DNA of 64,000 nt from Streptomyces sp. NBC_01237 (lineage in GTDB: Bacteria > Actinomycetota > Actinomycetes > Streptomycetales > Streptomycetaceae). How positions within the stretch are numbered: position 1 is the first letter of the stretch; every line of letters begins with the position of its first letter. The translations under genes and the position numbers were made by a program. Below the pieces are notes generated by a model. It made no database searches and was not told the origin of the DNA. It saw only the letters and a program-made list of their open reading frames with translations. Where the stretch lies: positions 62,001-126,000 of the forward strand of contig NZ_CP108509.1 of the NCBI RefSeq assembly GCF_035917275.1, read 5' to 3'. This document shows positions 11,124 through 26,283 of this stretch, one piece after another.

Positions 11124-11920
11124 CAGACAGCAAGCCGCACCACACCGCAGCAGTCCTGGGCGCGATCCTGAGCGACGCGCGCCGGCGACGGTTCATGCTC
11201 CTCGCGGAACCGGCCGCCCTCCTCGGCGTGAGCCCGGACACCGTGGCCGCCATCGAGCACGGCACCCACCGGATCAGCCCCGCCGCTCTCGCGGCCCTGG
11301 CCGTGCTCTACCGGTGCGGACAGGACGCATGGGCCCTGCAATGTCTCCTGGTGCCCGGCACCCCGGACGACCCGGCGGTCCAGGACAAAGAGCCGGGCCA
11401 CGCAGCACGTCTCGCAGCCTGTACGCGCCAGGCCGGCCGCGTGCGGTGGCTGTCGACCACACTGCTCCCGCCCCCCGTGCAGACCCCCCGCTACGCGCGG
11501 AACGTCGCCGAGCCCTCCACCCTGCTCCCCGGTGCCCCGCTGGACCCGCCCGCCGACACCGTCTACATCCTCGACTCACGCGTGATCGAACGCGGCAGCG
11601 GGACACCCGCCGTCATGGCCGAGCAGCTCCACCATCTGCTGAGCCTGGTGGACCACGGCACCTCGATCCGGATCGTGCCGGCCGCCCACCCCATCCCGCA
11701 GCCTCCCGGCCACCACGTGGAGATGACCCTGCCCGGCGGGCCCGTCCTGGCCCGCCCGGGACCCGACTGGGTGGACTACCAGCCGCCCGGCACCTGGTCG
11801 GACCGGACCGACGGCGTCCTCGGCACCACCGATCCGACGTCCTCCCGAGCCCTGCTCGAACAGGCAGCCCGGAAGCACACCTGGGCCGCCCGGTCGGTGC
11901 ACGAACCCGGGACACGGTGA
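11111..11920 (+). CDS. XRE/DUF5753 regulator (WhiJ-like)
   Basis: 269-residue regulator with an N-terminal helix-turn-helix (ARRRRFMLLAEPAALLGVSP, VAAIEHGTHRISP) and a DUF5753 domain (residues about 90-265: RYARNVAEPS, YILDSRVIERGSGTPAVMA, HHLLSLVDHGTSIRIVP, LLEQAARKHTW). Family members such as WhiJ act with small DUF397/BldB-like partners, none of which is recognisable here. GTG 11111 has an AGGA site eight bases upstream; ATG 11120 is the alternative. The DUF5753 domain is also present in the 6633-8474 fusion. Confidence 0.85.
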   Translation: MLLMTDSKPHHTAAVLGAILSDARRRRFMLLAEPAALLGVSPDTVAAIEHGTHRISPAALAALAVLYRCGQDAWALQCLLVPGTPDDPAVQDKEPGHAARLAACTRQAGRVRWLSTTLLPPPVQTPRYARNVAEPSTLLPGAPLDPPADTVYILDSRVIERGSGTPAVMAEQLHHLLSLVDHGTSIRIVPAAHPIPQPPGHHVEMTLPGGPVLARPGPDWVDYQPPGTWSDRTDGVLGTTDPTSSRALLEQAARKHTWAARSVHEPGTR

Positions 11921-12018
11921 TGTCGCGCCCCACCCGCACCCAAGTCCTCGCCCATGTCGTGACCGTGCTGCTCGTCCTCGGCTCGGTCATCACCGCCGCG
12001 ACTGTCCGCCCCCGATGA
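11920..12018 (+). CDS. 32-residue membrane micropeptide
   Basis: ATG 11920 overlaps the DUF5753 stop (TGATG) and the frame ends at 12018, overlapping the next ATG (ATGA). The product has a polar basic start (MSRPTRTQ), one hydrophobic helix (VVTVLLVLGSVITAATV) and a basic end (RPR). Size, topology and coupling mirror 5528-5617. Function unknown. Confidence 0.55.
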   Translation: MSRPTRTQVLAHVVTVLLVLGSVITAATVRPR

Positions 12019-12959
12019 GAGCCGCTTTCCCCATGACACCCACCGTCCCGCCCACCGCAACGCTGCGCTGCGACCCGGCCGAGGTCCCCCCGGCAACGAC
12101 CGGCCCCCAGCCCCCCTACCTGGCGGCCGCTGCCGAGATCCGCGCACGGATCGCCGACGGCCTCTACACACCAGGCGCCCGCCTCACCATGGCCCACCTG
12201 ACCGGCTGCACGGACCATGCCCCCGCCGACCTGCACAAGGCCCTGGACCACCTGGCCCACCTGGCCGACATACACGCTGTCCATGCCGTCAACGGACGGT
12301 GGTACGTCCGGGACGACCGCCCGTCCGGCCACACCGCGCGCCGCGCCGCGCACCTGCTCGGCACCGTCATCGGCCAGGGCGCCTACCCGCCCGGCACACG
12401 TCTACCCGTGCGACAGGTACTCGCCCGGATCCTCCTCGCCACACCGGCCGACGTGACCCAGGCACTGAACCTGCTCGCCGATCAGAGAGTCCTGCTGCCC
12501 GGCCGCGCCCGCCCCCACGTCGCCCAGCCACCGGGCGGCCTTCCCCCCGAGCAGTGGCCGCAGCGCCTGCTGGCGATCACCGGCCAGGACCCGACCCGGC
12601 AACAGGAGAGCGCGCCCTTCAGCCGGCCGGACATCCAGGCCACCCTGGACGCCGCGCTCCACCACTGGCAGCACGGCACCTGCCTGCCCGCACGCGACAT
12701 GACCCTCCAGGAAACCCTGCAGCACGATGTCCTGGCCCGCCTGGCCCGCAACACCTACAGGCGAGCGGCCACACGGCCGCTGGAACACTCCCGCCTCCGC
12801 CAGGCCGCCGCCCGGGCCACCGCATGCCGTCAACTGCCCACCGTCGCCGTGCCATTGCACGAACGGCAGTACCGGTTCACGGTCCTGGAGACCGCACTCG
12901 CCGACCTCGCCCACGAACTCACCGAACCCACCCGGCCCGGCCGGGACCCTCGCCGGTGA
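12015..12959 (+). CDS. GntR-like double winged-helix protein
   Basis: 314 residues. Two GntR-like winged-helix units are visible: residues about 35-100 (AAEIRARIADGLYTPGARLT, ADLHKALDHLAHLADIHAV, GRWYVRDD) and about 108-170 (LLGTVIGQGAYPPGTRLPVR, DVTQALNLLADQRVLLP). The C-terminal 140 residues are helical and unrecognised. Related to the 6074-6640 product in layout. Coupled to the micropeptide upstream. Confidence 0.6.
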   Translation: MRAAFPMTPTVPPTATLRCDPAEVPPATTGPQPPYLAAAAEIRARIADGLYTPGARLTMAHLTGCTDHAPADLHKALDHLAHLADIHAVHAVNGRWYVRDDRPSGHTARRAAHLLGTVIGQGAYPPGTRLPVRQVLARILLATPADVTQALNLLADQRVLLPGRARPHVAQPPGGLPPEQWPQRLLAITGQDPTRQQESAPFSRPDIQATLDAALHHWQHGTCLPARDMTLQETLQHDVLARLARNTYRRAATRPLEHSRLRQAAARATACRQLPTVAVPLHERQYRFTVLETALADLAHELTEPTRPGRDPRR

Positions 12960-14700: not shown

Positions 14701-14924
14701 CGGCATCAATCAGACCTCGCCAGAGATAACGGTGACCTCAGATGTGCAATGTCCGAGCGCCGAACCGGTCGATCACAGCCCGAAAACCAGGAACACGTCA
14801 CGCAGGGCGTTGCTTCTCGTGGGCCCATCCGGGCGGCGACCAGCAACTGCGCGGCGGGACCGAGCTTCCCGGCCTCCCCCACCTTTCTTTCTCTTCGTTG
14901 GTCACGCACCAGGAGCACAGCATC

Positions 14925-16658
14925 GTGAGTTCTCAGACCACCCGGGCCATATCCGCGCCCGCGCCTCCGGATCAGGCCAAGCACGCGTTCGTCCTGAGCC
15001 ACGCGACACCCAGCCTTCCCGGAGTCCGGTGGGATGCACGATGGCGTCTGCCCGTATACCGGGGGCGGCGTCTTCCTCGTGCTCTTCTTCCGTATGCGGC
15101 ACGGCTGCACTCGCTGGAGTGGCTGGTCGAGGACATTCTCAACGGGCGTATGCCACCGCCCCCTCCCGTAGAGCGTGAGCGTCCGGCTCTGCGAGACCAC
15201 CAGGTCCAGCCGGTGCGGCTGATGGCACAGGCGCATGCGTCCGGGGCGCCGGGCTTCCTGCTGGCCTATCCGACGGGGTCGGGCAAGACCGCCATGCTCA
15301 TCAACGCCACCCTCGACCTCCCGAAGGTGAAGGCCGTGCTCGTGGTGACCAAGCTGGACGTGGTCCCCGCGTGGCGCAGCGCCATCAGCTACTTCGGCAG
15401 CGGCGGCAAACGGTGGGTGGTGATCCACTCCGAGCAATTGTGGCGGCTGTTCGATCACCCCGTGCGGCAGCTGAACTCTCTGCCGGCTGACAAGGCCGCC
15501 GGGTACGCGGCCGAGGGAGGTATTCCGCGCGTCCGGTTCGACGCCGTCATCGTGGACGAGTCGCACATGATGGTCTCCCCCGACTCCGTGCGCTCCCGGC
15601 TGATCGACCGGCTCGTCCTGCCCGATCGCGTGACCGGGAGCCGCCCGTGGTTCGCACGCGCCTCGGCCTCCCCCTTCTCCAGCCCGGAGGAAACGGGCTA
15701 CGTGAGCGATCTGCTGGCCCACGTCGCTGAAGTTCCTGCGCCGGGCCGGCTGAGCATGGCCGAGCACAGGACGTGGCTGCAGAAGCAGTTCGGCTTCGCG
15801 TTGAACACCGGGCAGGACGGGCGGTGGGACCACAGCGTGAGCGGGACCGACGTGAAGAGCATCGAGTCGCTGCTGTTCTCCGGGGCGGTGGGCACGACCG
15901 CGACCGCCGAGCAGATCGGCCTTCCCACGCTGACTCGGGAACTGCGCCCGGTAGAGCTGTCCCCGGAGGACCGGGACCGCTACGAAGCCGCTTGGACACA
16001 GTTCCGTGCGCTTCACGGGCTGGAAATCGGGGACGGCACGGCCGACGACAGGTCCCCCGCCCTGCGTCAGGTGCAGAAGGCGTCGCTGCTCAAGGCGCCG
16101 AAGGTCGCCGAGATCGTGGCCGGGCTGGTGGAGGACGGCTATCAGGTGGTGGTCCCCGCCTGGTATCTCGACAACGTCTCCGCCCTTTCCCGTCTCACCG
16201 CGGCGGCCCTGGCGGCGCGCGGGCTGCCGGACCGGGTCGTGGAGATCACCGGGGCCTCGCGGGGGCTGCGGGAGATGAAGCGGCAGGCGTTCCAGGCGGG
16301 GCAGGCGCTCGTCGCGGTCGTCAACTCGCTGGAGGGCATCAACCTGCACGCGGGTGAACGCGGTGGCGCGGGCAAGGGCAAGGACGCCACGAAGACGCCC
16401 CGGGCCTGCGTGATCGCCGACGTACTGACCGGCGGGAAGCGCAGCCTGCAGGCGGAGGGACGCACGCAGCGCGACGGGGAGCGGTCGCTGACGCTGTACG
16501 TCTACGCCGAGGGCACCACCGAGCAGCAGTGGCTGGCCCGGATGCTGCGCGCCACGGCCGGAACACAGGCCCTGGTCCAGTCCCCCGCGGAAGCTCAGGC
16601 TCTGCAGGATCTGGCGGACCAGCTGTCCGTGCAGCAGGAGGAGGCGGAGCACCAGTGA
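14925..16658 (+). CDS. SNF2-like SF2 helicase coupled to the cas operon
   Basis: 577-residue superfamily 2 ATPase. Motif I is YPTGSGKTAML (residues about 115-125), motif II DESH (211-214), motif III-like ARASASPFS, and motif VI QAEGRTQRDG, closest in style to SNF2/SWI2-type enzymes. No HD nuclease domain is fused, so this is not Cas3. GTG 14925 has AGGAG nine bases upstream. The stop overlaps the cas8e start (GTGA), so helicase and Cascade subunits should be made in fixed ratio. The likely role is an ATP-driven motor for the RNA-guided complex, taking the place of Cas3 (inference). Confidence 0.8.
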   Translation: MSSQTTRAISAPAPPDQAKHAFVLSHATPSLPGVRWDARWRLPVYRGRRLPRALLPYAARLHSLEWLVEDILNGRMPPPPPVERERPALRDHQVQPVRLMAQAHASGAPGFLLAYPTGSGKTAMLINATLDLPKVKAVLVVTKLDVVPAWRSAISYFGSGGKRWVVIHSEQLWRLFDHPVRQLNSLPADKAAGYAAEGGIPRVRFDAVIVDESHMMVSPDSVRSRLIDRLVLPDRVTGSRPWFARASASPFSSPEETGYVSDLLAHVAEVPAPGRLSMAEHRTWLQKQFGFALNTGQDGRWDHSVSGTDVKSIESLLFSGAVGTTATAEQIGLPTLTRELRPVELSPEDRDRYEAAWTQFRALHGLEIGDGTADDRSPALRQVQKASLLKAPKVAEIVAGLVEDGYQVVVPAWYLDNVSALSRLTAAALAARGLPDRVVEITGASRGLREMKRQAFQAGQALVAVVNSLEGINLHAGERGGAGKGKDATKTPRACVIADVLTGGKRSLQAEGRTQRDGERSLTLYVYAEGTTEQQWLARMLRATAGTQALVQSPAEAQALQDLADQLSVQQEEAEHQ

Positions 16659-18544
16659 CGGCTACTGCGGCCACTGCGGCGTTCCGCCCGTCCGTGAGCC
16701 TGGCCGAACTGCCCTTCATAGAGGTGGCGTACCCGTGCGGGAAGCTGGCGCTTCTGTCGCTCGCGCAGGTTCTGGAACAGGGCGACCGGGTCCGTCTCGT
16801 CACCACCGACCCCTTGTTGTGGGCGGCGACGGTGCGGCTGCTGCTCGCCGTCGCCTACGCGGCAGGATCCGCGCCTTCGGGGAAGCAGCAGTACCGGCAC
16901 CAGGTTCTCCACGGGCTCGACCTCGAACCCGCGGCCCGCTGGGTGCGCGCCCACGCCGGTGATCTGGACCTCTTCGATCCCCACAAGCCGCTCTTCCAGG
17001 ACGGGTCGCTGCACGCGGTGGCAGAGGGACGGCCCGACGCGGCGATCCCGGTGCTGTACCTCGATGTGACCGCGGCGGTCCGGCGGCCGCTGCTCTCCGA
17101 TCATCGCCATCTGCACGCCTCCGTTCCCGTGTCCGCCGCCCGCGCGGCAGGTCTGATTCTGGTCCAGCAGATGTGGTGCTTGAGCGGTCGGATCACTGGC
17201 AACGAATCCGTCTACGGCAAGGGGTCCACCTTCGGGTCCCGGTCTGCGGCGTGCGGCGGGCTGGTCATCCAGCCGGACGGCACCGTTTCCCAGGTGCTGA
17301 GCTGGCGGCTGATCCCTGTCCTCGGCAGAGGGCCCGGCACAGCGCACTGGACCTACACCTCACGCCCGGCGCGCGGGCAACGGCAGGCACCCGCCAGTGA
17401 GAGCGGTGCGCTGACGTGGCATCACCGGCGGATCCTGCTGCTGGCGCAGGATGAGGGCACCGTCGCGCGGGTGCTGTTCGCCCAGGGCAGGCGTCCCGGC
17501 AAGCAGACTGCCCCTCTCACCGACCGGCCCGGCTGCCGAGACCTCCTGACAACCGAGTCGGGGGCTCCGCTGCCCGCGAGGGCGGTGACCGGCGAAGAGG
17601 ACACCGCCCCGCTGCTGCACAGCTGGTGGACCGCGCCCGCGGGCAGCTGGGCACACACCGCCCGCCGCGCCGCTGAGGCTCTCGGCTGTCAGCCGCCGGA
17701 CGTCCGCGTCACCGGCCTGACCGTCAGCCTCAAGAAGATCGACAACGTCCGCCACGTCTTCCTGCCGGGCTCGCTGCTCGGCGACTTCCGAGGGAAAGGC
17801 GCCGCCGCCCACGTCATGAACACCCGCGCCCAGGCCGCCGAAGCCCGGCCGGGTTTCGGCTCCACGCACCTGCACCAGGAGACTTTCATGCGCTCGTCCG
17901 ACACCGAGCGGACCACCGCGCTGCTCGACGACCTCGCCGCCGGCGACCTTGGCCTGTTCGTCACCGCAGACACCCCCCGCCGCCCGGCGGAAACGGACGA
18001 CCCGGTCGACGTACTGACCCGGAAGCTGGGTACCTGGGCGCGCAGCCACCGCACCCGGGCGCTCATGGCTGACCTCGCCGCCTGGGCAGCCGAACCGAAC
18101 CCGACCAACCCGGCCTACGCCTCGGTTACCAGGCTCGTGCCCGAGGAACTCCACGAGGCGGCCATGCTCACCGCCGCCCTGTTCGCCGCCCACCGCCGGG
18201 CCGCCTCCAGCGCACCGGTGTACGGAAACGCGCCGATCGCCCGGCTGATGCGGGCGGGCGGCACCGGCCGCCGGCGCGGCCCCGGACACCGCGCCACCCG
18301 CGCGTCCGTGACCCTGGTCCTGGACGCCCAGTGCCTGGAGGACCTCCGGGCCCCGCTCCTGCATCTGGTCCGTGATGCCGCGAGGGGCGGTATGACGCCG
18401 GACTGGACCTGGCTCCTGCACGACCTCTCCCACTGGGGGCCGGCTGTCCGGCAAGCGTGGCGAGCGCAGTTCTACACCGCCAGCCCTCTGCCTCCCCGCC
18501 GCGAACAGCCCGCCTCCGCCGACGAAGGACACCTCGCCGCATGA
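16655..18544 (+). CDS. cas8e: Cas8e-Cas11 (Cse1-Cse2) fusion protein
   Basis: 629 residues. Residues about 1-445 are Cse1/Cas8e-like: FIEVAYPCGKLALLSLAQVL, LLLAVAYAAG, and LDLFDPHKPLFQ (family DLF.P..PFLQ), with a central R/G-rich loop (TGNESVYGKG). Residues about 450-610 match Cse2/Cas11: VLTRKLGTWARSHRTRALMA, a central helix bundle, then LLHLVRDAARGGMTPDWTWL and HDLSHWGPAVRQAWRAQFY. In canonical I-E loci these are two genes. Together they would give the large and small subunits of the surveillance complex. Overlaps the helicase and cas7 genes by four bases each. Confidence 0.85.
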   Translation: MTATAATAAFRPSVSLAELPFIEVAYPCGKLALLSLAQVLEQGDRVRLVTTDPLLWAATVRLLLAVAYAAGSAPSGKQQYRHQVLHGLDLEPAARWVRAHAGDLDLFDPHKPLFQDGSLHAVAEGRPDAAIPVLYLDVTAAVRRPLLSDHRHLHASVPVSAARAAGLILVQQMWCLSGRITGNESVYGKGSTFGSRSAACGGLVIQPDGTVSQVLSWRLIPVLGRGPGTAHWTYTSRPARGQRQAPASESGALTWHHRRILLLAQDEGTVARVLFAQGRRPGKQTAPLTDRPGCRDLLTTESGAPLPARAVTGEEDTAPLLHSWWTAPAGSWAHTARRAAEALGCQPPDVRVTGLTVSLKKIDNVRHVFLPGSLLGDFRGKGAAAHVMNTRAQAAEARPGFGSTHLHQETFMRSSDTERTTALLDDLAAGDLGLFVTADTPRRPAETDDPVDVLTRKLGTWARSHRTRALMADLAAWAAEPNPTNPAYASVTRLVPEELHEAAMLTAALFAAHRRAASSAPVYGNAPIARLMRAGGTGRRRGPGHRATRASVTLVLDAQCLEDLRAPLLHLVRDAARGGMTPDWTWLLHDLSHWGPAVRQAWRAQFYTASPLPPRREQPASADEGHLAA

Positions 18545-19794
18545 CCACGCGCGCCACCGACCTCACCCCCCGCCCGCTGCCCGACCGCGGGCAGCCCACC
18601 GACGTCACCGACAGCCCCGGACCGTTCGTGGTCGTCCACTCCCTCACCTCCCTGGTCGGGATGAACCTCAACATGGACATGGACCACCTGCCCAAAACCC
18701 TCCGCTACGGGGGAGCGGAACGGATGCGGGTCTCCTCCCAGTCCCTCGCCCGGGCCGCCCGCGAGTACCTGCGCACCGACGGCACCCAGCAGCACGCGGG
18801 CGCCCACGCTCTCTCCACCCGGTCGCTCCCGACGGCCGTGACCCAGCAGCTGGAAGCGGAACACGGCGTCGACGCCGCAGACGCCCACCCGCTGGCGGCC
18901 CTCGTCGTGGCCGCCAGCGGCCTCAGCATCAATCCGTCCAGGCCCGGCCAGACGAAGGTCATGGCCTACGTCCCGGCCGACGCCCCCGCCCGGCTGGCCC
19001 GGATCGTCATGACCCACCTGGACGACCTCGACGGCCCGCGGGAGGCCATGGAGGACACCATCGCGGAGTGGGTGGCCGCATCCCAGAGCGCAGGCACGTC
19101 CCGCGCCGGCGACAGCGACCCGGGGACCCCGCTCAGCGGCCTTCCGGTGGCACTGGTCACCGCGGCCCAGGATGTCCTGGCACCGGGGACCGTGGAGGAG
19201 ATCGCCCTCTTCGGCCGACTGCTCACCGAACTCCCCCGTCCAGACAGGCGGATCTTCTCCGCCGCCCATATCGCCCACGGCTTCGGGGCCGACCCGCTCA
19301 ACCGACTCACCGACGAGTTCACAGCCCATGACGACTACCAGGAGGGCGGCGTCTTCAGCAGGTCAGGGATGCTGGGCCGCCAGTACCTCGTCTCGGGCAC
19401 CCTCTACCGGCAGGCCGCACTGGACCGGCACCAGCTGCGGCAGACGCTGGCCCTCTCGGGGCGCAGCGGGGCGGACGTCGAAGCGCTGGCCCAGAGCGCC
19501 GAGCGCCGCTGGACACGCGCCATCGTCCGCAGCCTGCCCAAAGCCAGACGCTCACGCCACGGATCCGCACCCCGCCCGGCCCTCGCCGTCGTCGCGACCT
19601 GCGACGAAGCCCTGACCGCCGGCCCCGCCTTCGAGGAACCGGTCACCTCACAGCCCGCGGGCCCCCACGCCGCCGCACGCCTGGCCGCCTACCTCCACCA
19701 CCTCGGCCTTCGGCAGGGAACAGCCCTGTGGCAGCCGCCGGCCGGCGAGGCCCCTCCCGAGCTCCCGGACGTACTGACCGTGAAGGGATACTGA
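18541..19794 (+). CDS. cas7e: Cas7e (Cse4) crRNA-backbone subunit
   Basis: 417-residue Cas7 of the Cse4 family. The N-terminal signature is clear: VVHSLTSLVGMNLNMDMDHL, then YGGAERMRVSSQSLARAARE. Later segments EEIALFGRLLTEL and AAHIAHGFGADPLNRLTDEF also fit. Multiple copies should coat the guide RNA. It is longer than typical Cse4 (about 350-380), with an extra Pro/Ala-rich N-terminus of about 25 residues and an insert near residues 180-200. ATG 18541 overlaps the cas8e stop (ATGA). Confidence 0.9.
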   Translation: MTTRATDLTPRPLPDRGQPTDVTDSPGPFVVVHSLTSLVGMNLNMDMDHLPKTLRYGGAERMRVSSQSLARAAREYLRTDGTQQHAGAHALSTRSLPTAVTQQLEAEHGVDAADAHPLAALVVAASGLSINPSRPGQTKVMAYVPADAPARLARIVMTHLDDLDGPREAMEDTIAEWVAASQSAGTSRAGDSDPGTPLSGLPVALVTAAQDVLAPGTVEEIALFGRLLTELPRPDRRIFSAAHIAHGFGADPLNRLTDEFTAHDDYQEGGVFSRSGMLGRQYLVSGTLYRQAALDRHQLRQTLALSGRSGADVEALAQSAERRWTRAIVRSLPKARRSRHGSAPRPALAVVATCDEALTAGPAFEEPVTSQPAGPHAAARLAAYLHHLGLRQGTALWQPPAGEAPPELPDVLTVKGY

Positions 19795-19795
19795 C

Positions 19796-20536
19796 GTGGA
19801 AACCGTGCTGCTCCGGCTCACCGGCCCCATGCAGTCCTACGGGACCGCAGCACACTGGGAGGAGCGCGGAACCCGGCGACGCCCCACGAAGAGCACGGTC
19901 ATCGGCCTGGTCGCCAACGCCCTCGGGCTCGCGCACGACGAGCCTCTCCACCACCTCGCCAGCATGACGTTCGCCGTGCGGGCCGACCGGCCCGGCCGGG
20001 AAATACGGGACCAGCAGACCGCCGGTGGCGGGCATTTCCCTCCGGCCGGCGAGAACACCCCGGACTCGGAGAGCCGGTACGGTGCGCCGCGCGACCCCGG
20101 CCTGAACCGGGACGGGACACTGCGCCCCTCCCGGCAGAAACGCAGCCGCGATCCCGTCCTGATCACCAAGCACTACCTCGAGGACGCAGGGTTCCTTGCC
20201 GGGCTCAGCACCGACGACGCAACTCTCGCCGCCGCCATCGACGGCGCCCTGCGCCGGCCCGCCCGGGTGCTCTTCCTCGGCCGGCGCTGCTGTCCGCCCG
20301 CACAGAGCGTCGCCCACGGCATCACCCCGTACGGCCCGGGCCAATGGCCCGGCCGTGTCCCCCTGCTGCCCGAAGCCACCGCGGCCGAGCCCACCGTGTG
20401 GACCGAAGCGCAGCAGCCGGCTGCCGGGGCATGGCCCAGTCCCGAGAACCCACTCCAGTTCTCCACCCGCACCTACACCAATCTGTTCCTGCAGACCTCG
20501 ACCGTCCTGCCACCCGCTCCGGAGCTCTCCCGATGA
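19796..20536 (+). CDS. cas5e: Cas5e (CasD) subunit
   Basis: 246-residue Cas5e. The start is diagnostic: LLRLTGPMQSYGTAAHWEER followed by RRRPTKSTVIGLVANALG. Other family features: DPVLITKHYLEDAGFLAGL and RPARVLFLGRRCCPPAQ. It should cap the 5' handle of the guide RNA and contact Cas8e. The GTG start follows the cas7 stop by one base; the end overlaps cas6 by four bases. Confidence 0.92.
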   Translation: METVLLRLTGPMQSYGTAAHWEERGTRRRPTKSTVIGLVANALGLAHDEPLHHLASMTFAVRADRPGREIRDQQTAGGGHFPPAGENTPDSESRYGAPRDPGLNRDGTLRPSRQKRSRDPVLITKHYLEDAGFLAGLSTDDATLAAAIDGALRRPARVLFLGRRCCPPAQSVAHGITPYGPGQWPGRVPLLPEATAAEPTVWTEAQQPAAGAWPSPENPLQFSTRTYTNLFLQTSTVLPPAPELSR

Positions 20537-21255
20537 CCATCCGCCCCGCGGCCACGTTCACCACACTCAGGTCCGCACTTACCCTCACTCCGCGCGAACA
20601 GGAACGCTGCAACAACGTGCACCACCTCCATGCGCTGGTCCTCTCCGGATTCCCCCTCCCCGCCCCAACCGGAGCCGCTCCCACGCCCCGCAGGGAGAAC
20701 GTGCTGTATGCCGCACACCGCGGTGATCCCCTGACCGACCGACAGCACCGACTCCTGGCAGCGCCGCCCGAACGCGTGCTCGTACAGGCCCCCGTCCAGC
20801 CCGACTGGCAACCACTGATCAACGACGGCCGCCTCACCAGAGCGGACGTGTTCCCGGTCGAACACCATCTGCGCGCCGGTGAGTTCATCGCCATCAGGGT
20901 CATCGCCAACCCCGTGCTGAGGAACCTCGAAACCGGAAAACGACTCAGTCTCACCGCGCCGCACGACGCCGCAGACTGGATGCACCGCCACTTGACGCGC
21001 ATCGGACTGGACACGGCCCCCGGCGACATCACAACGAGCCAGCGAGTCCGTATCACCGGAAGCCGCAGAGGCAGACCCCTCACCGTGATCTGCAGGGACA
21101 CGGCCGCCCGCGGCCGCGTTCGCGACCCCGAACTCCTCGTACGGGCCCTGACCACCGGCATCGGCCCGGCAAAGGCCTACGGCTGCGGGCTGCTGCGCAT
21201 GCGCATTCACCTCACCGAACAGAACGAGGAAGACAAGATCGCGGTTCTCGTCTAG
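20533..21255 (+). CDS. cas6e: Cas6e (CasE) guide-RNA endonuclease
   Basis: 240-residue Cas6e. The N-terminal ferredoxin-like fold contains candidate catalytic histidines (NNVHHLHALVLSGFP, His30/31/33, near the family His26), and the C-terminus has the glycine-rich loop TGIGPAKAYGCGLLRM. It would cleave at the 3' base of repeat hairpins and stay bound. The hairpins just downstream (21287-21520) have the 6-bp stem, 4-nt loop geometry that I-E Cas6 enzymes cut. ATG 20533 overlaps the cas5 stop. Confidence 0.9.
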   Translation: MTIRPAATFTTLRSALTLTPREQERCNNVHHLHALVLSGFPLPAPTGAAPTPRRENVLYAAHRGDPLTDRQHRLLAAPPERVLVQAPVQPDWQPLINDGRLTRADVFPVEHHLRAGEFIAIRVIANPVLRNLETGKRLSLTAPHDAADWMHRHLTRIGLDTAPGDITTSQRVRITGSRRGRPLTVICRDTAARGRVRDPELLVRALTTGIGPAKAYGCGLLRMRIHLTEQNEEDKIAVLV

Positions 21256-21286
21256 GGTCGTTCGCGAAGAGCATCGGCCTTCCCTT

Positions 21287-21362
21287 CCTCACATGCGTGA
21301 GGCTGCACCACGCGCAGGGAGATCGAGACCGGCCTTACCGCCGACTCCCCACAGCGGTGGGG
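21287..21362 (+). CRISPR. Guide-RNA-like unit A (two I-E-type hairpins 60 nt apart)
   Basis: Hairpin 1 is CCTCAC-ATGC-GTGAGG (21287-21302); hairpin 2 is CCCCAC-AGCG-GTGGGG (21347-21362). Both have the 6-bp stem and 4-nt loop of type I-E repeats and differ by a compensated base pair. Cleavage at the 3' base of each would release 60 nt, close to the 61 nt of E. coli crRNA: an 8-nt handle starting CTGCACC, about 31 nt of guide (21311-21341) and a 21-nt 3' hairpin. Lies 31 bases after cas6e. It is not a standard array: only two divergent repeats. Confidence 0.65.
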
Positions 21363-21444
21363 CAGCCGAGCTTCTTCTCGCCCTTCACCTCCCGGGCCCA
21401 TTCCCCGTCCTCAGACCGTCGCGACGCACACTATTCCTCCCTCT

Positions 21445-21520
21445 CCTCACCGTTGTGAGGCTGCACCTTTCGCAGGGAGCTCCAGACCGGCGTGACATCC
21501 GGCTCCCCACAGCAGTGGGG
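21445..21520 (+). CRISPR. Guide-RNA-like unit B, homologous to unit A
   Basis: Second copy, exactly 158 bases downstream. Hairpins CCTCAC-CGTT-GTGAGG (21445-21460) and CCCCAC-AGCA-GTGGGG (21505-21520), again 60 bases apart. The handle CTGCACC is the same as in unit A, and the guide (21469-21499) is identical to unit A's at 23 of 31 positions by my count. Spacers from adaptation would be unrelated, so this looks like a duplicated, conserved guide. The rest of the interval to 21801 shows no gene and no further hairpin of this type. Confidence 0.65.
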
Positions 21521-21801
21521 CACGGGCGCGGAGGCAACCTCTCAGCGCCCCCCGCTTCGGCCTTCCGGTTCCCGATGCGTACGGATGCACCGGAGCCGGA
21601 AGGCTGGGGGCACTCAGCCCTCCCCCGCCCCGGACGACATCCACGCGATGTGCCGCGGCGCCCGCCCCGCAGCGGCGGAGTTGCCTTCCCGCCACTGACC
21701 CGGCCGGTCACCACGCCGACGCGCCCACGGGCCGGGCGCACCGGGACTTCCACCGCTCTCCTTACTTCAACCTGTGCACAGAACACCCGAAATGGATAGA
21801 A

Positions 21802-22158
21802 ATGCGCCATTCCTTGCCGAAGGCGGGTCAGGCACCCGCGCCGCGCGTGCCCACCGCCGAGACCACGCCCCCGGCCACCGGCCGTGTCTTCGCCGACTCC
21901 TCCGGCCCTACCGGGCAGGCGGGCGGCCCCGGCTCCGAGCGGCTGCCCGGCCGGCCCTTCAACCCGGCACAGCTCCTGCCGCGCGACCCCATTCGCCGCA
22001 CGTCGGTGGCGGCACCCGGGGCCCTGGTCGTCGGGGTGCATCTGCTGCTCGAAAAGGACGGTGTGATTGCCCACCGGCCCGAGGGGCCCCACGGTTCTGC
22101 CTTCTACATTGCCGCGCGGCCGGGCATGGTCCAGCCCGGGGAGACTGCCCGTGTCTGA
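21802..22158 (+). CDS. Winged-helix-like protein upstream of helicase
   Basis: 118 residues. The C-terminal half aligns with the 14325-14621 product: VHLLLEKDGVIAHRPEGPHG then SAFYI, against LADRNVVEHLPKGPHG then PAYYM. The N-terminal half is Pro/Ala-rich and lacks a clear recognition helix, so the DNA-binding part may have decayed or diverged. The stop overlaps the helicase GTG by eight bases (GTGTCTGA), the same junction type seen at 6633. Start codon uncertain; ATG 21802 is the first in frame. Confidence 0.5.
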   Translation: MRHSLPKAGQAPAPRVPTAETTPPATGRVFADSSGPTGQAGGPGSERLPGRPFNPAQLLPRDPIRRTSVAAPGALVVGVHLLLEKDGVIAHRPEGPHGSAFYIAARPGMVQPGETARV

Positions 22159-24430
22159 TACTCCCGTTCTGTGGCCGCACCAGCAGGCGGCGTCCGATGC
22201 CGCGGCGGAGGCACTCGCACGCGGCGGGCGGGGAAGCGTGGTGCTGCCCTGCGGTACGGGGAAGACCCTGGTCGCGGCGGACGTCCTGCGCCGGACATCC
22301 GGCCCGGCTGGCGGGCCGGTGCTGTTCACCGCCCCGTATGTGCGCCTGCTCGACCAGACGCTGCGCGAATGGCAGTCCTATCTCGGACCGCAGGCTCTGG
22401 GCACCGTCGTGGCGGTGTGCTCCGACCGGCGGCTGCTGGACGACCACCGCCAGCTCTTCGGTGACCGCGTCCACGTCACGACCGACTCCCAGCAGCTGGC
22501 CGACATCCACCGCAAGTCCACGCGCATCACCATCCTGGCGACGTACCACAGCCTGCCCGTCGTGGCACGCGCCCATGAACTCGGTCTGCCACCAGCCGAG
22601 TTCATCGCAGTCGACGAAGCACACCGCACGACCGGGGCGGAGAACAAGTCGTGGGCCATCGTCCACGACGACAGCCGGATTCCCGGGGTGCGGCGTCTCT
22701 ACCTGACGGCCACCCCCAGGATTGTCGAAGGCACGCGGACGATCAGCATGGGTGACACGGCCGTGTTCGGTCCCCAGTACCGTCTGAGTTTCGGCGAGGC
22801 CAAACGCCTGGGTCTCCTCGCACCGTACGAGGCCGTCGTCTCCGTCATCACGGACGACGATGTCCACGCGGCCACCGCACGCCCGGGTGCCGGGCTCTTC
22901 CTGGACACCGGCCCGCGGGCGGTGTCGCCCACGATGCTGGCCTCACAGCTCGCCCTGCTGCGGGCGGCCCGCGACCGCGGGCTCCGGAAGATCATCACGT
23001 TCCACACCCGGGTAGCCGACGCCCGGTGGTTCGCCACAACCCTCCCCGACGCCGCGGCCCTGCTGGACGGCGACCCGTACCCGGTGCGCGCCGACTGGGT
23101 GCAGGCGAAACAAACCCCGGCCCAGTGGCACGCCGCCCGCAGCCTGCTGGAGGACGACGGGGACGGGCTCGCCGTCGTCGCCAACGCACGCATGCTGGGC
23201 GAGGGCCTCGACATTCCAGCGGTCGACGGCGTGGCATTCATGACCCCGCGGAGCTCAGCGATCGACATCGTCCAGGCCGTGGGCCGGGCCCTGCGGCTGG
23301 GCGGCCGCAGGAACAAGGTCGCCTCCATCCTGATCCCCGTCCATCTCGCGGCCGGCGAGGACCCGCAGACGGCACTGGCCGCGTCGGCGTTCAACGAGGT
23401 GTGGCGGGTCGTGGCCGCGCTCGCTTCCCACGACGAGGACTTCGCCGGCAGGCTCCGCAGGCACCGCCATGACATGGGGGCCCAGCAGTACACGGGCAGC
23501 GGCCAACTCCCCGACTGGCTCAGCCTGTCCGGTGTGCCCGTCCCTCCCGGCTTCGCGGACGCCGTGACCGTGCGGGCCGTGCGGTCGCTGACCGACTCGT
23601 GGGAGGAGTTCCTCGGCGCCTGCTCCTGGTACCGGGACAAGCACGGGGACCTGAACATTCCGGACCACTGCGTCACCCCGTCCGGATATCCGCTCGGCGC
23701 GCGCATCGTCCGCGAGCGGCGCAACCAGCGCGCCGGGGTCCTGCGCCCCGAACGCAAGAAGCAGCTCGACGCACTCGGCATGATCTGGGACGTCATCCAG
23801 CACCGCCTGGACCTGCTGGTGACCGAACTGGAGGCCTTTCACGCTCAGCACGGGCACCTCCTCGTCCCGACCGGCACTCTGACCGGGACCAGGATCAAGG
23901 CACTGCGTCTGAAGCGGCGGTCAGACCGCCTGGACTCCGAGACTGTCAGGCGGCTGGACGCCATCGGCATGGTGTGGGAAATGGACGACGTCTGGCTGCA
24001 GTTCCTCGCGGACCTGCACACATACAAGGCCCGCTTCGGCCATCTGAACGTCCCCCGCCCCTGGATGACGGACGGCGAGAAACCCCGGCATCTCGGGGTT
24101 CAGGTGTCCAACCTCCGCCAGCGGTTCCCGGGCACCGCACCGCCATCAGTCGTGGCTCACCTGGACCGGATCGGGTTCATCCGCAACGCCAAGGATGACC
24201 GCTATCAGCATGCCCTCGCCGCACTGCGGGCCTTCCACACCCAGAACGGCCATGTCCGGGTACCCGCCGGGCTGCAGACCCCGCACCCACACCAGATCAG
24301 CCTCAGAACCTGGCTCCGCAACGCCCAACGCAAGTACCGGAACGGCCAGCTCCCGGAGAACCGGGTCGCCGATCTCCGGTCCCTGAGCGCGCTGCCCCCC
24401 GCACCGGACGCAGACCGGGGACAGCAATGA
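22151..24430 (+). CDS. DEAH-box helicase with helicase-associated (HA) repeats
   Basis: 759 residues. Superfamily 2 core: motif I PCGTGKT (33-39), DEAH (155-158), TAT, and motif VI QAVGRALR. After about residue 480 come four HA-domain repeats of about 60-65 residues, each with a W/Y-x-x-x-L start, an H/N-G-H/D-L-x-V/I-P centre and a closing L-D-x-I/L-G-x-x-W-like end. HA helicases are common in Streptomyces and their substrate is generally unknown. A copy of its 5' end lies at 14611, on the other side of the cas operon. Confidence 0.85.
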   Translation: MSDTPVLWPHQQAASDAAAEALARGGRGSVVLPCGTGKTLVAADVLRRTSGPAGGPVLFTAPYVRLLDQTLREWQSYLGPQALGTVVAVCSDRRLLDDHRQLFGDRVHVTTDSQQLADIHRKSTRITILATYHSLPVVARAHELGLPPAEFIAVDEAHRTTGAENKSWAIVHDDSRIPGVRRLYLTATPRIVEGTRTISMGDTAVFGPQYRLSFGEAKRLGLLAPYEAVVSVITDDDVHAATARPGAGLFLDTGPRAVSPTMLASQLALLRAARDRGLRKIITFHTRVADARWFATTLPDAAALLDGDPYPVRADWVQAKQTPAQWHAARSLLEDDGDGLAVVANARMLGEGLDIPAVDGVAFMTPRSSAIDIVQAVGRALRLGGRRNKVASILIPVHLAAGEDPQTALAASAFNEVWRVVAALASHDEDFAGRLRRHRHDMGAQQYTGSGQLPDWLSLSGVPVPPGFADAVTVRAVRSLTDSWEEFLGACSWYRDKHGDLNIPDHCVTPSGYPLGARIVRERRNQRAGVLRPERKKQLDALGMIWDVIQHRLDLLVTELEAFHAQHGHLLVPTGTLTGTRIKALRLKRRSDRLDSETVRRLDAIGMVWEMDDVWLQFLADLHTYKARFGHLNVPRPWMTDGEKPRHLGVQVSNLRQRFPGTAPPSVVAHLDRIGFIRNAKDDRYQHALAALRAFHTQNGHVRVPAGLQTPHPHQISLRTWLRNAQRKYRNGQLPENRVADLRSLSALPPAPDADRGQQ

Positions 24431-24516
24431 GCCACCTCCCGCTCCCCACCCCGGCACCGAGTGCCAGTCCGGCTGCCACAGACCAACACCCCACACCCAC
24501 AACGAATCAGGACACC

Positions 24517-25070
24517 ATGAGCCGCCGCATCGAGGATTACGCACTCATCGGAGACATGCAGACCGCCGCCCTGGTCCGCCGGGACGGCACGGCCGACTGG
24601 CTGTGCCTGCCCCTCTTCGATTCGCACGCCGTCGAGTCCGGGGACGCGGAGGGACCGCTGGAGCGGTGGCGCGAGCTGCGCGACGACATCCACCGCGACG
24701 TCTGCGAACAGGGCTACGACAAGGAACGCAATACCTTCACCGAGTCGTACGGGTCGAAGGAGCTCGACGCGTCCTTGCTGCTGATTCCGCAGATGGGCTT
24801 CCTGCCGCCGGACGACAAGCGGGTCATCGGCACGATCGAGGCGATCCAGCGTGAGCTGTCCACGGAGGACGGCTTCGTCCTGCGCTACCCCACGGCGGGG
24901 GACGCCGCGGGCGTGGACGGCCTGGAGGGCGACGAGGGCGCGTTCCTGGCCTGCTCGTTCTGGCTCGCCGACGACCTCACGATGATCGGCCGGGTCGATC
25001 GACGACGAGGCCCGCCAGCTCTTCGAGAAGCTGCTGCCCCTGCGCAACGACCTGGACCTGGAAGAGCCCG
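24517..25070 (+). pseudogene. Glycoside hydrolase family 15 pseudogene
   Basis: The frame starts like a GH15 glucoamylase/trehalase-type enzyme (RIEDYALIGDMQTAALVRRD, WLCLPLFDSHA) and jumps directly to the C-terminal part of the family (ERNTFTESYGSKELD, LLIPQMGFLPPDDKRVIGTI, GDEGAFLACSFWLADDL), an apparent deletion of several hundred codons. Near 24995-25003 the frame shifts (the other frame continues EARQLFEKLLPLRNDL), and homology ends by about 25070. A frame running from 24427 to 26283 joins this relic to the next gene, but that fusion is not meaningful. Confidence 0.8.
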
Positions 25071-25275
25071 CCGTGCTGTTGACCTTCCTGCGCACCGTGG
25101 CCCGCGTGATGCGTGCCACGCCGGGCGGCCCGCTCGGGCGGCCCCGGCAGCCCGCCTCGCGCCCCATGGAACTCCTGCTGGAACACCAACGGGCAGGTCC
25201 GCGTCCACCCCGGCCCACAGATCCCACACAGCCGCCCGCCGGCTCTGTTCATTTGAACCCGGAGGTACTCGACCC

Positions 25276-26283
25276 ATGTCCGTTTTGCGGGCCCCCTTCA
25301 CTGTCAGCATCCCCGCCGGCCCTCCGGATCCGCCACCTGACTGGTGGCCCAGCAGCAGCCACCATCAGGCCCTGAAGGGTCTGCTGCAGGGCCTGAGCGA
25401 TACCGCGTACGCCGAGCAGCAGCAGCTGACCGTCAGCACCGTCAGGGACTATCGCCGCAGCTGCCGCGGCGGGTACTCCGTGGGCACGGACCGGGCCCTG
25501 GCCCATCTTGCAGTCAGGGACGGCCTGATCACCGTCGTGCGCCTGCCCGAAGGCGGGGCGGATGATCTTCCCACCGAGGTTCTGGAGGTGTGGCGGCACC
25601 TCGCATTCGATGTACCCGACAGAACCCTGGCAGCCGCCATCGCCAGAGAGACGGGCCTGTCCAGGGACCAGGTCGAGTCCGCTCTGTCGGTGCTGAGATC
25701 CGAGGGCGAGAGCGACTGCGCACTGATCGCCCGCGGCTATGCCTGCGGGGCGCTCACCGGTCGCGAGATGACAGAGCCCAGCTTCCACACCCGTACGGTG
25801 CGCACCGAGTCGCCGTCTCGCCGCCCTCGGTCGGGTGCGCCTCCCGTCCGTCGGCCCCGCGGCATCGACCCTCTCCGTCTCGTGCCCGACGGTGTGCCGT
25901 GGCCGCCTGACGGGATGGGAGTGCTGTCCGGCGATGTGGTCACCGGCCTCGATGTCGACGTGGTGCGCGCGACCCCGGACGCCTGCCGCACCGCGTTGAG
26001 GACTCTGATCCACGCACATGGGCAGTCGTGGGGGCCGGTCCTGGGGGACGTGGAGGGCGGCACCGCGCTGTTTCTCGTGCAGCCCGGGGTGCTGCCTGAT
26101 GGGTGGCGCAGTTCCGGAGGGAGGCTGTGGCGACGGGGCGCCATCCTGCGACGGATTCCCGCGCCATGGGTCCGGGGCGGATCCGGGCTGTACTGGGCCG
26201 TTGAGGGTCAGGGCAAGTACTGGCGGCCCGATGTCCTCGCCGACGCGCTCGCCCCGCCGACAGCCGCGGCCGGCGGGAGATGA
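25276..26283 (+). CDS. HTH protein, paralogue of the 9527-10996 product
   Basis: 335 residues. Residues about 25-90 form a LuxR-like or degenerate HTH (LKGLLQGLSDTAYAEQQQLT). Residues about 100-160 match the DVPD module of the 9527 protein (LEVWRHLAFDVPDRTLAAAI). Residues about 190-330 match its C-terminal domain (VLSGDVVTGLDVDVV, SWGPVLGDVEGGTALFLVQ). So it is a single-module version of the duplicated protein. GGAGG lies ten bases before ATG 25276. Regulator or DNA-binding accessory factor is the likely role; the effector domain is unidentified. Confidence 0.65.
   Translation: MSVLRAPFTVSIPAGPPDPPPDWWPSSSHHQALKGLLQGLSDTAYAEQQQLTVSTVRDYRRSCRGGYSVGTDRALAHLAVRDGLITVVRLPEGGADDLPTEVLEVWRHLAFDVPDRTLAAAIARETGLSRDQVESALSVLRSEGESDCALIARGYACGALTGREMTEPSFHTRTVRTESPSRRPRSGAPPVRRPRGIDPLRLVPDGVPWPPDGMGVLSGDVVTGLDVDVVRATPDACRTALRTLIHAHGQSWGPVLGDVEGGTALFLVQPGVLPDGWRSSGGRLWRRGAILRRIPAPWVRGGSGLYWAVEGQGKYWRPDVLADALAPPTAAAGGR

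Follow-up and report, generated by a model that had tools for sequence, protein, structure and literature searches.

The two hairpin units directly 3' of cas6e in the window (the whole 64-kb stretch of Streptomyces sp. NBC_01237 DNA that was analysed) are, in a reading that we hold to be slightly better than an even bet (probability roughly 0.53), predicted guide-RNA genes of a type I-E-like module devoid of Cas1, Cas2 and Cas3, which would load Cascade with two fixed guides that silence and do not cut. Judged from the sequences, the system likely silences host genes rather than fights viruses. In the putative pathway, the transcribed units would be cut by Cas6e after each hairpin, and the guide RNA (8-nt handle, 31-nt guide, 3' hairpin) would assemble with Cas8e-Cas11e, Cas7e and Cas5e; this Cascade would bind an AAN-flanked site, where the SNF2-like ATPase could help to block transcription without cleavage. 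Because searches returned no target for either guide of the window, this locus is interpreted through sister loci of other Streptomyces plasmids, and the mechanism argued from the sisters is applied to the window by homology of the whole module.

The Cascade module and its hairpin units

Upstream of the units and on the same strand, the operon encodes a helicase, Cas8e/Cas11e, Cas7e, Cas5e and Cas6e, in this order. The features of the module are (window coordinates, strand, description):

14742-16658, +, full open reading frame of the helicase
14925..16658, +, DEAD/ResIII helicase, resembling SNF2/XPB in profile and fold (start uncertain, GTG chosen by comparison with the S. anulatus locus L062)
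16655..18544, +, Cas8e (Cse1) with a C-terminal Cas11e (Cse2) domain, single gene (GTG start chosen by comparison with L062)
18541..19794, +, Cas7e (ATG start chosen by comparison with L062)
19796..20536, +, Cas5e (Pfam/PADLOC matches)
20533..21255, +, Cas6e, 240 aa (Pfam/PADLOC matches)
21287..21302, +, hairpin 1, CCTCAC-ATGC-GTGAGG, degenerate repeat, with the predicted Cas6 site after 21302 (sequence, covariation, shuffles)
21303..21310, +, predicted 8-nt 5' handle of guide 1, CTGCACCA (sequence; the consensus of 33 repeats is CTGCACCC here)
21311..21341, +, predicted guide 1, 31 nt (sequence)
21347..21362, +, hairpin 2, CCCCAC-AGCG-GTGGGG, 3' end of predicted guide RNA 1 (sequence, covariation, shuffles)
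21445..21460, +, hairpin 3, CCTCAC-CGTT-GTGAGG (sequence, covariation, shuffles)
21461..21468, +, predicted 5' handle of guide 2, CTGCACCT (sequence, repeat consensus)
21469..21499, +, predicted guide 2, 31 nt (sequence)
21505..21520, +, hairpin 4, CCCCAC-AGCA-GTGGGG, 3' end of predicted guide RNA 2 (sequence, covariation, shuffles)
21555..21609, +, long terminator-like hairpin closing the module (folding energy -39.9 kcal/mol, z = -6.0; 87% identity with L062 in this region)

Pfam and PADLOC matched Cas8e, Cas11e, Cas7e, Cas5e and Cas6e in this operon; since the three NCBIfam matches score below their cut-offs, we regard the Cascade as a divergent I-E type. No matches to Cas1, Cas2, Cas3 or HD were obtained in the operon, and in the helicase itself Pfam and PADLOC detected neither an HD nuclease domain nor a Cas3 match. 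Type IV effectors (Csf) and DinG were not matched either; PADLOC models of type IV gave hits for Cas6 alone, with scores below those of the I-E Cas6 models. The helicase has a profile match to XPB, and the structural matches of its model (mean pLDDT 76) are SNF2-family motors (Chd1, ISW1, RapA) and XPB.

The borders of the module were obtained with megablast and a 25-kb query. A single block (14810-21611, + strand) is found in one piece, with 87.6% identity, on the 437-kb plasmid of Streptomyces anulatus (NZ_CP109401.1), and the remainder of the query is absent from the matching block; the similarity stops at 21611, directly past the long terminator-like hairpin. The two replicons therefore have in common a module of 6.8 kb that consists of the helicase, Cascade, both guide units and this hairpin. 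The genome of the window strain gave a single Cas7e match, and a conspecific genome (G019) gave weak Cas7 matches only, so the module looks accessory. Two scans of genome contigs with the Cas7 and helicase alignments yielded no confirmed relative; a search of 391 Streptomyces genomes with the helicase alignment (0 at E <= 1e-20) is uninformative, as this set held no genome known to match. An Rfam scan of the whole window matched nothing.

Hairpin starts are 60 nt apart inside each unit and the units 158 nt apart, with an irregular step of 98 nt from hairpin 2 to hairpin 3; the two 87-nt units are 79% identical. The window contains 47 perfect hairpins with a 6-bp stem and a 4-nt loop, and the only two pairs of them spaced by 60 or 61 nt are exactly these units. 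In 200 dinucleotide shuffles of the window there were on average 0.05 such pairs (maximum 1), and two pairs within 300 nt occurred in none (0/200). If an 8-nt handle is assumed, guides 1 and 2 are equal at 23 of 31 positions (differences at 1, 2, 12, 15, 24, 26, 29 and 30). This geometry and the agreement of the guides had both been proposed in a preliminary description of this DNA, and they stand. Folded alone, unit 1 is predicted to favour another structure, and unit 2 has no stability beyond that of its shuffles (z = 0.28).

Arrays on the sister plasmids

Relatives of the helicase and of Cas7 occur together on 13 Streptomyces plasmids, seven of which belong to S. cellulosae or S. althioticus. 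Eight of the plasmid loci were fetched (L062-L069). All of them have the gene order helicase, Cse1, Cas7, Cas5, Cas6, and the gene table, itself incomplete, lists no cas1, cas2 or cas3 for any of them up to 9 kb from cas7. Furthermore, hairpin units with degenerate repeats stand behind cas6 in all eight loci (2 to 11 hairpins, most spaced by 60-61 nt):

L062, S. anulatus plasmid, closest relative: two units, second hairpin of unit 1 broken
L063 and L064, S. althioticus and S. cellulosae: 11 hairpins behind cas6
L065, NBC_00280: 8 hairpins behind cas6
L066, NBC_00582: irregular hairpins, larger loops
L067, NBC_00445: 3 hairpins behind cas6
L068, NBC_00015: 4 hairpins behind cas6
L069, S. clavuligerus pSCL3: irregular hairpins, larger loops

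In 33 repeats, 99.0% of the stem cells are paired and double changes are present in four of the six pairs, values that none of 500 shuffles reached in either respect; the number of pair types is unexceptional (145/500 shuffles as high). Loops and flanks vary, while stem and handle (consensus CTGCACCC) are common to the repeats. The units keep their form and not their letters. Near-identical repeats with unrelated spacers are not what these loci show: the repeats share the stem and the handle, and the spacers of the window, L063 and L065 are related to each other. The spacers also look like coding sequence: translated from the first base, most guides of L063 and L065 give (E/T)RxxLAALAxD or something close to it.

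Several points of the preliminary description can be judged from these loci. Its compensated stem changes are borne out by the covariation, its I-E geometry agrees with the dedicated Cas6 and Cascade that adjoin the units, and its view of the spacers as duplicated rather than unrelated fits the relatedness just described. The conservation that it expected in relatives carrying the cas operon is seen in all eight loci, two of them irregular. It was mistaken in placing the units "instead of a CRISPR array": the sisters have degenerate arrays, of which the window has a short form. It had missed that the units belong to a longer series, with up to 11 such hairpins behind cas6 in relatives.

Some peculiarities of individual arrays are worth recording. 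Two neighbouring guides of L068 (11818-11961, NBC_00015) are identical letter for letter, with no adaptation genes nearby, apparently by a recent duplication of the unit. L067 has an extra, partnerless CCCCAC/GTGGGG hairpin (12426-12441, NBC_00445) ~640 nt past its array. In a more distant relative (L032, genome G158), a CCCTCC/GGAGGG hairpin lies behind cas6 at 11881-11896, with a poorer second one at 11956.

A gene cassette matched by sister guides

Guide L065_5 agrees at 28 of 32 positions, after AAG, with a SARP-NB-ARC-TPR gene of a linear 2.8-Mb replicon, in the part for the DNA-binding domain. The gene is part of a scattered Streptomyces cassette of three: gene A encodes the SARP-NB-ARC-TPR regulator, gene B a divergent NB-ARC-TPR protein, and gene C a protein without Pfam match (a few relatives of C carry the label CDP-glycerol glycerophosphotransferase). 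SARP-type regulators are a class associated with antibiotic regulation. We fetched 32 cassette loci (the best 30 places and two further ones; L192, and L193-L224 without L201), 29 of which have the complete order C-B-A. At E <= 1e-130, 57 of 295 Streptomyces genomes have relatives of gene A. Where the neighbouring genes were compared (the first 12 loci, genes called by a crude custom script), they differ except for two small ORFs beside C, each common to two loci, and the cassette therefore looks mobile. The genome of the window strain has its own copy (C1:6066862-6074069, corresponding to L192 7863-15070).

Six arrays supplied 25 distinct guides, of which ten score above all 30 of their (mononucleotide) shuffles on the cassettes and 15 do not; the ten come from four arrays, and L065_5 among them counts as the discovery and not as a test, as the cassette was found through it. 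The 25 leave out L068_3 (identical to L068_2), the L064 array (printed sequence as in L063) and the guides of L066, L069 and L032. Compared with neighbouring DNA, the cassette was matched better by 14 of the 25 guides, equally well by nine and worse by two. None of these ten guides matches perfectly (22-28 positions of 31-32). Helix 1 of gene A is matched by two guides of L063 and four of L065, all six in one codon register; L067_1 and L067_2 match the NB-ARC domains of genes A and B, respectively, L068_1 a WP motif of gene B, and L068_2 (two copies) gene C. Note that the matches to B and C are independent of the way the library was built, because both genes entered it only as neighbours of A.

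The flank of the matched sites is mostly AAG, AAA or AAC for eight of the ten guides (loci with at least 20 scored matches): AAG or AAC for L068_2 (11/11 loci) and L068_1 (13/14), and AAG or AAA for L063_3 (12/13), L065_1 (10/11), L063_1 (9/10), L065_3 (9/11), L065_2 (4/5) and L065_5 (3/3). The sites of the L067 guides are preceded by GAC. The codon in front of the helix-1 site encodes a conserved lysine (AAG or AAA in 31 of 33 genes). AAN is also the flank reported for the I-E system of S. avermitilis (PMC12231136).

L063_4, L065_6 and L063_7 have a helix-1-like reading, yet no convincing site; no target was obtained for the L062 guides, nor for any of the four that come from L066, L069 and L032, all irregular loci, although the three best matches of L066_1 all lie in gene A, at the level of shuffles. 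SARP genes in general were rejected as targets, as only genes of the cassette A type (L070, L081) stood out for the L063 and L065 guides. The preliminary description had also seen significance in guide differences that fall on every-sixth positions, and this argument has to be given up: the three such differences of the window pair give P = 0.093, and for ten helix-1 guides aligned with the 33 genes, 27 of 73 mismatches are on every-sixth positions, 18 on other third-codon positions and 28 elsewhere (P = 0.12; the count omits two of 12 such guides, which have below 22 matches). A count of 28/67, obtained with 28 sites from a motif that allowed only three preceding residues, was dropped in favour of this alignment.

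A gene similar to B (34-43% identical to the B gene of L192, in several cases incomplete) is found near the operon on all eight sister plasmids, at most 5 kb away in L062, L063, L064, L065 (two genes), L066 (two genes), L067 and L069 and about 6 kb away in L068; the S. anulatus plasmid bears an A-like gene elsewhere as well. Ten sister guides match the cassette and the plasmids bear a B-like gene, and the element therefore likely turns down the host copy of this gene system, over which it may favour its own version. L068_1 matches the B-like gene of its own plasmid at 17 of 26 scored positions, versus up to 23 for the B genes of the cassettes. More tentatively, plasmids might use a whole type I-E Cascade as a multi-guide gene silencer, whose duplicated, co-evolving guides would cover allelic variants of a single regulator cassette of the host; as the plasmid has its own version of one cassette gene, the host circuit would be switched off and replaced.

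For L068_1, the B-like gene next to the pSCL3 operon is as good a match (24/31, with AAG) as the cassettes are, and rival plasmids may therefore be targets too. This match speaks for an alternative that we regard as unlikely, namely that the units are the degenerate array of a plasmid-borne I-E derivative that serves, as type IV-A does, in the competition of mobile elements, and whose Cascade and helicase would block rival elements that own the cassette or the targets of the window's guides. The module does reside on large plasmids with a helicase in the place of Cas3, the cassette is present also on the 2.8-Mb BHT-5-2 linear replicon, and type IV-A is likewise nuclease-free and plasmid-borne according to PMC11656645. 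However, the ten matching guides are all directed to one cassette, six of them in one codon register, and not to varied transfer genes; furthermore, eight of the fetched cassettes are on contigs of over 7 Mb, that of the window strain's genome included, and adaptation genes are absent nearby.

The window's guides and related systems

Fixed guides with a conserved target, as suggested in the preliminary description, are backed by the common target of the ten sister guides; for the window's two guides, no target emerged above controls in genomes, plasmids or cassettes. On the cassettes, neither guide reaches 20 scored matches at any locus. With up to three mismatches over 26 positions, guide 2 found only itself in 333 Streptomyces genomes, and guide 1 found itself and two weak sites (one for the reversed control). 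Searches of STAND/SARP loci and plasmids with the guides as DNA, and searches with their six-frame peptides, gave nothing above controls. A 23/31 match to guide 1 in cas7 of L063, L064 and L065 (L065 9425, L063 9425) lacks an AAN flank and is probably due to chance.

The units could also be remnants of an array that no longer give working guides. We consider such decay improbable: the irregular 98-nt step, the lack of a target for the two guides and the broken second hairpin of L062 unit 1 would fit it, but all four stems in the window are perfect and the handles are kept. Moreover, in the comparison with L062 guide 2 is the least conserved part (45% identity), while the hairpins (68-88%) and the region of the 3' hairpin (87%) are retained; guide 1 (68%) is unremarkable. 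Least probable is a guard of the CreTA kind, with the units as creA-like antitoxin guides that repress an adjacent toxic gene through short seed pairing with its promoter, since, although creA genes, too, have a guide flanked by divergent degenerate repeats, two in number (PMC8501985), and the window has two isolated units, there is no AAN-flanked site with at least 9/10 seed matches in 20400-22400 (the three such sites in the window and the scanned loci of its own genome all lie elsewhere), and the matches of the sister guides extend along the entire guide and fall on coding sites of a cassette that is distant. Within cas6, guide 1 has a 9/10 seed match at 20687 and guide 2 has one at 20568, neither of them with AAN.

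Nuclease-free silencing by the module thus remains our preferred reading, and by its sequences the system is best classified as a derived variant of type I-E. It shares with type I-E the five proteins Cas8e, Cas11e, Cas7e, Cas5e and Cas6e, the 6-bp stem and 4-nt loop, the period of 60-61 nt and, at most matched sites, the AAN-type flank. Unlike type I-E, the window operon is without cas1, cas2 and cas3, has Cas8e and Cas11e fused and includes an SNF2-like helicase; the repeats are degenerate here, and the spacers of the long arrays are interrelated. Minimal I-E variants of Streptomyces that lack cas1, cas2 and cas3 and lie beside STAND NTPases are described in a review (PMC12231136, on Shmakov 2018), which gives their role as a hypothesis. 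The system perhaps is part of this group: the absence of the same three genes and STAND NTPases nearby are common to both, and the two may be the same or overlapping, as far as the review's description goes, in which helicase, guide units and guide targets are not mentioned (PMC12231136).

The system belongs to none of CreTA, TldR-FliC and type IV-A. With CreTA, as described in PMC8501985, it has in common a guide between two degenerate repeats and, as proposed here, repression by Cascade with partial pairing; it differs in the dedicated Cascade adjoining the units and in the sister targets, which are coding sites of a distant cassette, and an adjacent toxin is only hypothetical. TldR-FliC prophages are described as mobile elements with a nuclease-free, RNA-guided DNA binder aimed at the host counterpart of a gene of which they carry a relative (PMC13418256). 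The sister guides would likewise target the host relative of a plasmid-borne gene, a neighbour relation that fits gene B only; on the other hand, the binder here is Cascade and not an inactive TnpB, there are several guides, and repression is a prediction. Guides of L063, L065, L067 and L068 match A, B or C, whereas the window, with no relatives of A, B or C within its 64 kb, has no such neighbour. Type IV-A resembles the system in large plasmids, a helicase, no nuclease and often no adaptation genes (PMC11656645), and is unlike it in that the proteins here are those of I-E and not Csf, the helicase is SNF2/XPB-like and not DinG, and the matched guides share one cassette. These guides or targets are nowhere described in the literature covered (mostly titles and beginnings of abstracts, subscription papers and preprints excepted).

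If the silencing reading is true, CRISPR arrays may quit recording invaders and turn into fixed multi-guide regulators of host genes, and the system would be a Cascade counterpart of TldR. It would also supply testable targets for the minimal I-E variants near STAND NTPases in Streptomyces, and plasmid carriage could be tied to SARP-type regulators.

The surroundings of the module offer two further observations. Directly downstream of it lies a second, different helicase with four stretches of helicase-associated (HA) domains (window 22067-24430). Close by is a gene of glycoside hydrolase family 15 (window 24427-26283); on the plasmids of S. althioticus and S. cellulosae, too, the operon has a gene of this family in its vicinity (L063 957-2825), and close relatives of it are present on further plasmids.
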